A stretch of 63,035 nucleotides of DNA. Source: Nitriliruptoraceae bacterium (GTDB lineage Bacteria; Actinomycetota; Nitriliruptoria; Nitriliruptorales; Nitriliruptoraceae). Under the pieces are notes generated by a model that saw nothing but the letters and a program-made list of their open reading frames with translations, was not told the DNA's origin and ran no database searches. This document shows positions 27,779 to 28,848 of the stretch, piece after piece (the first letter of the stretch is position 1; each line of letters starts with the position of its first letter). The DNA lies in contig SKSM01000026.1 of NCBI GenBank assembly GCA_007122985.1, positions 1 to 63,035 on the forward strand, written 5' to 3'. A program made the position numbers and the translations under genes.

Positions 27779-27795
27779 CCCTCGCTCGTGGTCAG
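27775..27795. terminator. short hairpin holding both stop codons (ECH / CstR-like genes)
   Basis: CTGACC at 27775-27780 pairs with GGTCAG at 27790-27795 around nine bases. The TGA of the hydratase gene and the TGA of the convergent regulator are in opposite arms. Confidence 0.4.
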
Positions 27796-28058
27796 GACAG
27801 CTCGACGAGCGCGCGTTGGAAGCGCTCGAGGTCGGTGTCGGCCCGGCTACCGCTGACGCACGTCTCGACACCGTCGACGGCCAACTGCACCCCGACGCGT
27901 CGCAGTGCCTTGCTGGCCGCACCGATCTGGCGCAGCACCTGCTCGCAGTCATCACCCTCGTCCAGCATCCGCTGCAGGGCGCGCACCTGTCCTTCGACAC
28001 GGCGCAGGCGGCTGTGTGCCCGCCTGACCCGGTCGTCACCCAACTCGCGCACGTCCAT
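27792..28058 (-). CDS. CsoR/RcnR (DUF156) family repressor, CstR-like cysteine pattern
   Basis: This 88-residue all-helical repressor has RLRRVEGQVRALQRML and DDCEQVLRQIGAASKALR. Copper sensors of the family use Cys-x-His-x-Cys, with His four residues before the second Cys. Here Cys38 and Cys67 are kept, 29 residues apart as in both CsoR and CstR, but position 63 is Gly instead of His. This is the pattern of CstR, which senses per/polysulfide through the two cysteines. It lies downstream of the VKOR gene, whose promoter carries a perfect palindrome typical of this family, so autoregulation of the pair is likely. Formaldehyde or copper sensing cannot be ruled out. Confidence 0.88.
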   Translation of the reverse strand: MDVRELGDDRVRRAHSRLRRVEGQVRALQRMLDEGDDCEQVLRQIGAASKALRRVGVQLAVDGVETCVSGSRADTDLERFQRALVELS

Positions 28059-28105
28059 GCTGCTGTCTCCCGTCCGAGGGTGAGCCTATTCGCATGTTCG
28101 CAGCC

Positions 28106-28149
28106 GTCCACCGCGAGGGCCGCCGCGAGCGGCGACCCTCGCGGTGGAC
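28106..28149 (-). terminator. strong hairpin between VKOR and CstR-like genes
   Basis: A perfect 14-bp stem (28106-28119 with 28136-28149, core CCACCGCGAGGG) encloses a 16-base loop that can itself form CCGC/GCGG. It starts 13 bp past the VKOR stop. It should reduce read-through into the repressor gene, giving the repressor a lower level than VKOR. Confidence 0.65.
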
Positions 28150-28161
28150 CTCCGTGACGCC

Positions 28162-28764
28162 TCAGTTGCCGGGAAGCGGCAGCACCGTCAGCGACCACAT
28201 CGCCACCAGGGTCATCGCCATGGTGGCCACGAATGTGGCTGGCCAGACGCGCTCGGCCGGCACGGCCGGTGCTGCGGTCGAGCCGCCCCGGCGCCGGATC
28301 ACGACCTCGGTCAGGAACAGCAGTGTGGTCGCGGCGGCCGACATCATGCAGAACGGGCAGATCGCACCGATCGGACCGAGCTGCAGGTAGACGAACACGG
28401 CCGACGCGAGCACGCCCGTCGCGGTCACCGGTAGCAGCAGACGCTCGATGAGCCGGCTCTTGGTGTGCAGCCAGGTCGCACCGGCGGCGATCATCGCCGT
28501 GTAGTAGAGGGCACCGATCAGCGCCACCGGCACGGGTCCGACATAGGCCCACTGGCTGGTCATCACCTGCATCGGTCCTTCGGGCTGCGCGCCTGCCGGG
28601 AGCGGTAGGACCCAGAAGTGGATGGCGGTCAGCAACGAACTCGCGCCCCAGCCGATCACCGCGACCGCGATGAACATGCGGATCAGGCCGTTCACGGTGC
28701 GGTCGCTGCCCCCGGTCGATGTCGAGTCTTCGGGGAGCGTCGGGGCGGTCGTGGTGTCGGTCAT
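28162..28764 (-). CDS. VKOR-family membrane thiol oxidoreductase
   Basis: The 200-residue protein has a cytoplasmic N-tail and about five membrane helices. Helix 2-3 carries SQWAYVGPVPVALIGALYYTA, matching the VKOR S...G.P.a..G..~Y pattern. The active-site motif is Cys136-Pro-Phe-Cys139, followed by MMSAAATTLLFL. VKOR proteins pass electrons from DsbA-like thiol proteins to quinone. The first, loop cysteine pair of VKOR is not visible, so it may use another partner; a DsbA-like protein is coded at 60059-60763. The ATG at 28764 has GAGGT seven bases upstream, and a CsoR/CstR-type operator lies 65 bp upstream. Confidence 0.87.
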   Translation of the reverse strand: MTDTTTAPTLPEDSTSTGGSDRTVNGLIRMFIAVAVIGWGASSLLTAIHFWVLPLPAGAQPEGPMQVMTSQWAYVGPVPVALIGALYYTAMIAAGATWLHTKSRLIERLLLPVTATGVLASAVFVYLQLGPIGAICPFCMMSAAATTLLFLTEVVIRRRGGSTAAPAVPAERVWPATFVATMAMTLVAMWSLTVLPLPGN

Positions 28765-28828
28765 CGTGCTACCTCGCGAATCGTCGTCGGACGGTGACGG
28801 TCTCAGCGACGCCCGATCGTCGGACGCC

Positions 28829-28848
28829 ATATACCCCTAGGGGTATAT
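28829..28848. promoter_or_regulatory. perfect 20-bp palindrome, likely CsoR/CstR-type operator
   Basis: ATATACCCCTAGGGGTATAT is a perfect palindrome in otherwise very G+C-rich DNA. CsoR-family repressors bind inverted repeats of the TACCCC..GGGGTA kind. It sits 65 bp ahead of the VKOR ATG, overlapping where the promoter should be, and the matching repressor gene is the next gene downstream. Confidence 0.85.

Follow-up and report, generated by a model that had tools for sequence, protein, structure and literature searches.

Which signal controls a VKOR-family gene that lies between a perfect palindrome and a gene for a DUF156 repressor, and what would its product do there? Members of the VKOR family are familiar from disulfide formation and the vitamin K cycle. 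CstR, the CsoR-like sulfurtransferase repressor of, for example, S. aureus, E. faecalis and S. pneumoniae, with YrkD as its B. licheniformis counterpart, has known targets by which sulfide and persulfide are processed, namely SQR, persulfide dioxygenases and rhodaneses. The locus described here lies in a window of 63,035 nucleotides (the whole stretch of DNA that was analyzed), which is one contig (C165) of a 3.19-Mb, 348-contig Nitriliruptoraceae assembly that is about 76% complete. MAGs of Nitriliruptoraceae are the closest named relatives of the source genome; their isolate prefix, CSSed, presumably refers to the Cock Soda Lake sediment sets (PMC6704655). Our preferred reading, to which we give a probability of roughly two in three, is that the locus is a small autoregulated CstR-type operon that responds to sulfane sulfur and expresses a quinone-linked membrane thiol or persulfide oxidase. 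Read along the minus strand, the locus comprises in turn the operator, the VKOR gene, a hairpin and the DUF156 gene (Table 1); the upstream acyl-CoA dehydrogenase gene and the convergent enoyl-CoA hydratase gene look unrelated. A longer VKOR frame starting at 28830 was rejected, because its start codon would fall within the operator and the orthologues align from 28764.

Table 1. Features of the VKOR-DUF156 locus (positions in the window)
Feature	Position	Strand	Description	Basis
Operator	28829..28848	.	Perfect palindrome ATATACCCCTAGGGGTATAT; 14-bp core TACCC-N4-GGGTA	One copy in the genome; conserved ahead of orthologous VKOR genes; spacing as for His-less DUF156 regulators
Two-cysteine VKOR-family membrane protein	28162..28764	-	200 aa; CPFC at 136-139; Pro56 and Pro64 at the positions of the loop cysteines; Ser70 as the VKOR-signature serine	PF07884, fold, alignment
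Hairpin between VKOR and regulator genes	28106..28149	-	GC-rich, perfect 20-bp hairpin	Folding energy
CstR-like DUF156 repressor (predicted)	27792..28058	-	88 aa; C38-G63-C67	PF02583, residues, tree

The putative repressor matches PF02583 (E=2.2e-19, 70.1 bits against a cut-off of 22.8), and its Cys38, Gly63 and Cys67 are invariant in 8/8 orthologues; the sensing cysteines of S. aureus CstR are C31 and C60. In an alignment with solved structures, Gly63, four residues ahead of the second cysteine, occupies the slot of the copper-ligand histidine of CsoR (PDB 4m1p, 4adz), so that the C-H-C ligand set of CsoR and RicR is missing. The protein of PDB 7mq1-3, deposited under the CsoR name and which we take to be S. 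pneumoniae CstR, likewise lacks a histidine at this slot, although 7mq3 carries a residue other than glycine there. A maximum-likelihood tree of 71 DUF156 domains separates all 26 His-less regulators (C-G-C or C-A-C) from 31 C-H-C CsoRs by one branch (93/88) and nests the window regulator (98/98) with regulators that adjoin persulfide dioxygenase and SulP genes. The 7mq3 CstR joins the His-less group, and hence the actinobacterial branch, on a long branch with weak support (90/64), the deep forks of the tree being unsure because few columns could be aligned. The best NCBIfam matches were RicR (50.3 bits, cut-off 175), FrmR (32.4 bits, cut-off 133) and RcnR, all far under their cut-offs. The window regulator has no frm genes beside it, the VKOR operons have no neighbors related to copper, nickel or formaldehyde, and a C-H-C CsoR is already encoded at another locus of the source genome. 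Sulfur genes adjoin the related regulators; in the window, only the VKOR gene is adjacent. The proposal of the initial annotation, that a repressor keeping both cysteines with glycine at the copper-histidine slot is CstR-like and not of the copper type, is thus supported at the sequence level by residues, phylogeny, operator spacing (see below) and the sulfur-gene neighborhoods of orthologous regulators; placement in the FrmR/CsoR clade would have spoken against it, and the tree puts the protein in the His-less clade instead.

The palindrome lies 65 bp ahead of the VKOR ATG at 28764. Among the perfect palindromes of the window it is the longest; about 0.3 palindromes of 20 bp would be expected by chance in 63 kb at 72% GC, and by its length alone it is weak evidence. 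The arrangement described earlier, a 20-bp palindrome 65 bp before a VKOR-family gene with the repressor gene downstream, is borne out, but its half-sites are separated by two bases (TACCCC-TA-GGGGTA), so that the motif given then as TACCCC-N-GGGGTA should read TACCCC-NN-GGGGTA. This motif has a single copy in the 3.19-Mb assembly and 9 sites in the 36 genomes of the order, against 1 for the reversed-pattern control, and 7 of the 9 lie just upstream of orthologues of the window VKOR. Such conservation is far beyond chance and excludes a fortuitous palindrome, which length could not. Palindrome and VKOR thus recur together in other genomes, in some of which the DUF156 gene is not adjacent. The site TACCCCGGGGGGTA adjoins a divergent DUF156 gene in a genome that has no VKOR.

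We then scanned the sequence upstream of every available DUF156 gene, with duplicates removed. C-H-C regulators have 15-bp TACCC-N5-GGGTA operators (11 loci), whereas His-less regulators have 14-bp TACCC-N4-GGGTA operators (15 loci), with one C-H-C locus having both (Fisher p about 1e-6 with the mixed locus counted against, a guide only, because related genomes are not independent samples). The window operator is of the N4 kind and lacks the 15-bp N5 spacing, which was seen beside C-H-C regulators only. CsoR and RicR copper sensors share the Pfam family and the general operator style of the window system but differ by their C-H-C residues and, in the genomes examined, by N5 operators beside csoR, copZ or copA. 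Operator spacing separates copper from sulfur DUF156 types without using the protein at all, and the 14- versus 15-bp rule offers a cheap way of telling them apart in actinobacterial genomes. A third class in Actinomycetota, with arginine at the histidine slot (C-R-C), was seen at eight loci, some of them with N4 operators.

The operator is also conserved where regulator and VKOR are encoded apart. This holds for five related genomes (Cellulomonas bogoriensis, an Egibacter sp., one Nitriliruptorales and two Nitriliruptoria MAGs), whose C-G-C regulator and VKOR genes lie far from each other; an N4 operator stands 35-78 bp before the VKOR start, and the regulator locus is preceded by the operator as well. 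The neighbors of these distant regulators, whose identities were confirmed with Pfam and NCBIfam, are sulfur genes: in Egibacter, MBL+rhodanese proteins similar to persulfide dioxygenase, together with SulP and a universal stress protein; a persulfide-dioxygenase-like MBL+rhodanese set plus a rhodanese-YgaP in the Nitriliruptoria; SulP in the Nitriliruptorales; and, in C. bogoriensis, a CoA-disulfide reductase fused to rhodanese, which resembles the CstR-controlled CoAPR of E. faecalis with its C-terminal rhodanese domain (PMC9405070). The Nitriliruptorales genome and each of the two Nitriliruptoria genomes have 3 TACCC-N4-GGGTA sites in all, confined to the VKOR and regulator loci; Nesterenkonia muleiensis also has 3, all around the VKOR gene. 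Further sites occur in C. bogoriensis (at a rhodanese-thioredoxin-DUF302 group) and in Egibacter (at thioredoxin and a CitMHS-type symporter), along with some that look incidental. As the thioredoxin genes of both genomes have an N4 operator to themselves, they would seem to be part of this regulon. Of 396 Actinomycetota genomes, 7 have a regulator of the tight subfamily and 10 the two-cysteine VKOR, with both in 7/7 regulator carriers (Fisher p 4e-13 before allowing for relatedness; the counts cover related genomes and are not independent events). Two genomes (G009 and G007) have the operator without a detected tight regulator, G009 having a more distant C-G-C regulator, and in three genomes of one genus the VKOR gene lacks both the operator and a regulator next to it.

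The operator, kept both in cis and in trans, supports the placing of the VKOR gene under a persulfide-type sensor, as a predicted target of a sulfane-sulfur regulator. The source genome itself has, on contigs C89 and C225, a cluster of persulfide-dioxygenase-like, SulP and rhodanese-YgaP genes and another dioxygenase-like gene, which adjoins an ArsR-rhodanese fusion. No N4 operator was found in the stretches read at these two loci, so that the sulfur label of the window regulator rests on its orthologues, and the regulator may now serve the VKOR alone. The system thus resembles CstR in its DUF156 fold, its two cysteines without the copper histidine, its G/C-tract palindromic operator and the CoA-disulfide reductase-rhodanese, rhodanese and persulfide dioxygenase genes beside its orthologues, and differs in that the window target is a VKOR.

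We next asked what kind of VKOR this is. CPFC-type sites are extracytoplasmic in known VKORs, which form a quinone enzyme family, and in VKOR and DsbB enzymes the loop cysteines carry out the thiol relay. The window protein matches PF07884 (E=7.5e-20, 71.9 bits against a cut-off of 27.5), and although a PDB sequence search with the VKOR profile gave no match, the 14 best PDB matches to its AlphaFold2 model (pLDDT 90.6) are all VKOR structures. It shares the fold, the CXXC and the conserved serine with bacterial VKORs (Synechococcus 3kp9/4nv5 and actinobacterial VKORs), the active-site residues Cys132, Cys135 and Ser57 of human numbering being present as C136, C139 and S70. Unlike them, it has neither a fused thioredoxin domain nor the loop (shuttle) pair: its only two cysteines are those of CPFC. 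Both shuttle cysteines are absent in 29/29 relatives, where the single extra cysteine precedes the start codon, whereas 24/24 ordinary actinobacterial VKORs have both; in alignment with these 24, the first position is an invariant proline and the second Pro, Ala, Ser or Gly. As the loop cysteines (Cys43 and Cys51) are fully conserved in 327 VKORs (PMC4555120), the protein is a variant homologue rather than a four-cysteine VKOR and belongs to what is apparently an undescribed subfamily. In the order, 13 of 36 genomes have any VKOR, and each has only the two-cysteine form. This bears on the initial annotation, which had spoken of a thiol relay and of disulfide formation tied to sulfane-sulfur stress: with the cysteines missing, both are unsupported as written, disulfide formation being just one of several possible activities.

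In the preferred reading of a sulfane-sulfur-responsive operon, the reduced repressor would sit on the 14-bp operator ahead of the VKOR gene as long as reactive sulfur is absent. Rising persulfides or polysulfides would link Cys38 and Cys67' by a di- or trisulfide, as expected by homology with CstR, and the cross-linked repressor would leave the operator, allowing expression of the VKOR and the downstream repressor gene, whose newly made product would close the loop. Without shuttle cysteines, a relay from DsbA through the loop to CXXC is impossible and the reductant must meet CPFC directly. CPFC could therefore take electrons from a small thiol, a (hydro)polysulfide or persulfide, or a thioredoxin-like partner, most simply from one of the small molecules, and the VKOR would pass them to the membrane quinone, with reduced or sulfane sulfur being removed or detoxified at the cell surface. 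The residues, the operator and its conservation, the regulator clade, the sulfur regulon of the orthologues, the VKOR fold and the lack of shuttle cysteines are observed, while repressor binding, inducer, quinone coupling and substrate are inferred.

A serious rival, which we nevertheless consider unlikely, keeps the CstR-type operon but makes the VKOR a DsbB-like oxidase, on whose CPFC a DsbA- or thioredoxin-like partner docks directly to restore extracytoplasmic disulfides damaged by persulfidation. CPFC, Ser70 and the fold do match VKORs, thioredoxin or thioredoxin-reductase genes are neighbors in haloarchaea, and thioredoxin genes carry the same operator in two actinobacteria; the thioredoxins seen, however, look cytoplasmic, the gene is accessory (13/36 genomes), and the shuttle cysteines are gone in every relative, the first to an invariant proline. 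We give distinctly less weight to a repressor that senses oxidative or electrophile stress in general (for example quinones, HNO or disulfide stress), the VKOR answering quinone or thiol imbalance. Membership of a quinone enzyme family would fit, HNO too reacts with S. aureus CstR (PMC5480029), and disulfide linkage into a dimer, which Cu(II) or H2O2 promotes, costs Thermus TTHA1953 its DNA affinity (PMC10318464), but the regulon in trans is specific to sulfur (persulfide dioxygenase, rhodanese, CoA-disulfide reductase-rhodanese, SulP). TTHA1953, a CsoR-family protein of T. thermophilus, is likewise a Cys-x-Cys DUF156 regulator of sulfur genes, but its operator, TACNNTACNNNNGTANNGTA, has no G/C tracts and it targets the Sox operon (PMC10318464). 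Least credible, and in our view very improbable, is a copper- or formaldehyde-responsive operon of CsoR/FrmR type with a ligand other than His63: the sub-threshold RicR, FrmR and RcnR matches and the similar G/C-tract operators of CsoRs speak for it, and against it stand the glycine of all orthologues in a clade apart from C-H-C CsoRs, the N4 site where CsoR sites are N5, the sulfur genes beside orthologues with no copper, nickel or formaldehyde neighbors, and the separate C-H-C CsoR of the genome. A copper CsoR proper was rejected on the same residues, tree, spacing and separate gene.

If the sulfane-sulfur reading holds, the VKOR is a new predicted target for a CstR-type regulator and, as far as we found, the family is tied to sulfur stress for the first time. 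A literature search found no link between VKOR and CstR, persulfide or soda lakes, and papers that name both VKOR and CsoR, judged largely by title, suggest none either; our comparison with published CstR operators is limited. A quinone-linked thiol enzyme family would thus join the CstR regulon in a form incapable of the classical relay, raising the question of whether a VKOR can use polysulfide or persulfide directly.

Two-cysteine VKORs were found at 30 loci in a scan of public genomes. Carriers are Nitriliruptoraceae, other Nitriliruptoria, Egibacter, C. bogoriensis and N. muleiensis among actinobacteria, and otherwise Balneolales (Balneolota) and haloarchaea such as Natronolimnohabitans, Natronosalvus and Halalkalirubrum, with 35 of 292 haloarchaeal genomes positive. 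Their names or isolate codes mostly point to soda lakes or alkaliphiles, a picture biased by the intense sampling that soda-lake MAGs have received. VKOR genes from outside Actinomycetota showed no TACCC operator upstream. An ArsR-rhodanese fusion lies about 60 bp directly before the VKOR gene in a Balneolaceae MAG; a persulfide-dioxygenase-like MBL+rhodanese, Sulf_transp and thioredoxin precede it in one haloarchaeon; and a Natronorubrum daqingense plasmid has an island YeeE-YeeE-DsrE-TauE-VKOR-HTH. Many other haloarchaeal VKOR loci have no sulfur-type neighbors. That the gene occurs in two bacterial phyla and in haloarchaea suggests that it contributes, so far unrecognized, to the tolerance of sulfur in alkaline brines. 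High alkalinity makes polysulfides chemically more stable (PMC6704655). We tentatively raise the possibility that the two-cysteine VKOR takes the place of SQR without being related to it: it would be a new type of sulfide- or persulfide:quinone oxidoreductase, induced by sulfane sulfur and spread horizontally among soda-lake bacteria and archaea, in whose alkaline habitat polysulfide is stabilized. Thioredoxin and an FAD oxidoreductase also occur near the N. daqingense island and, divergently, at the Natrialba magadii VKOR locus, and a similar TrmB-like HTH gene recurs beside other archaeal two-cysteine VKORs.

The region between the VKOR and regulator genes (28059-28161) has a folding energy of -60.2 kcal/mol (z=-4.55). 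Hairpins with unrelated sequences are also predicted between the two genes at orthologous loci, where about half clearly beat shuffled sequences, and such a structure could reduce read-through into the repressor gene.
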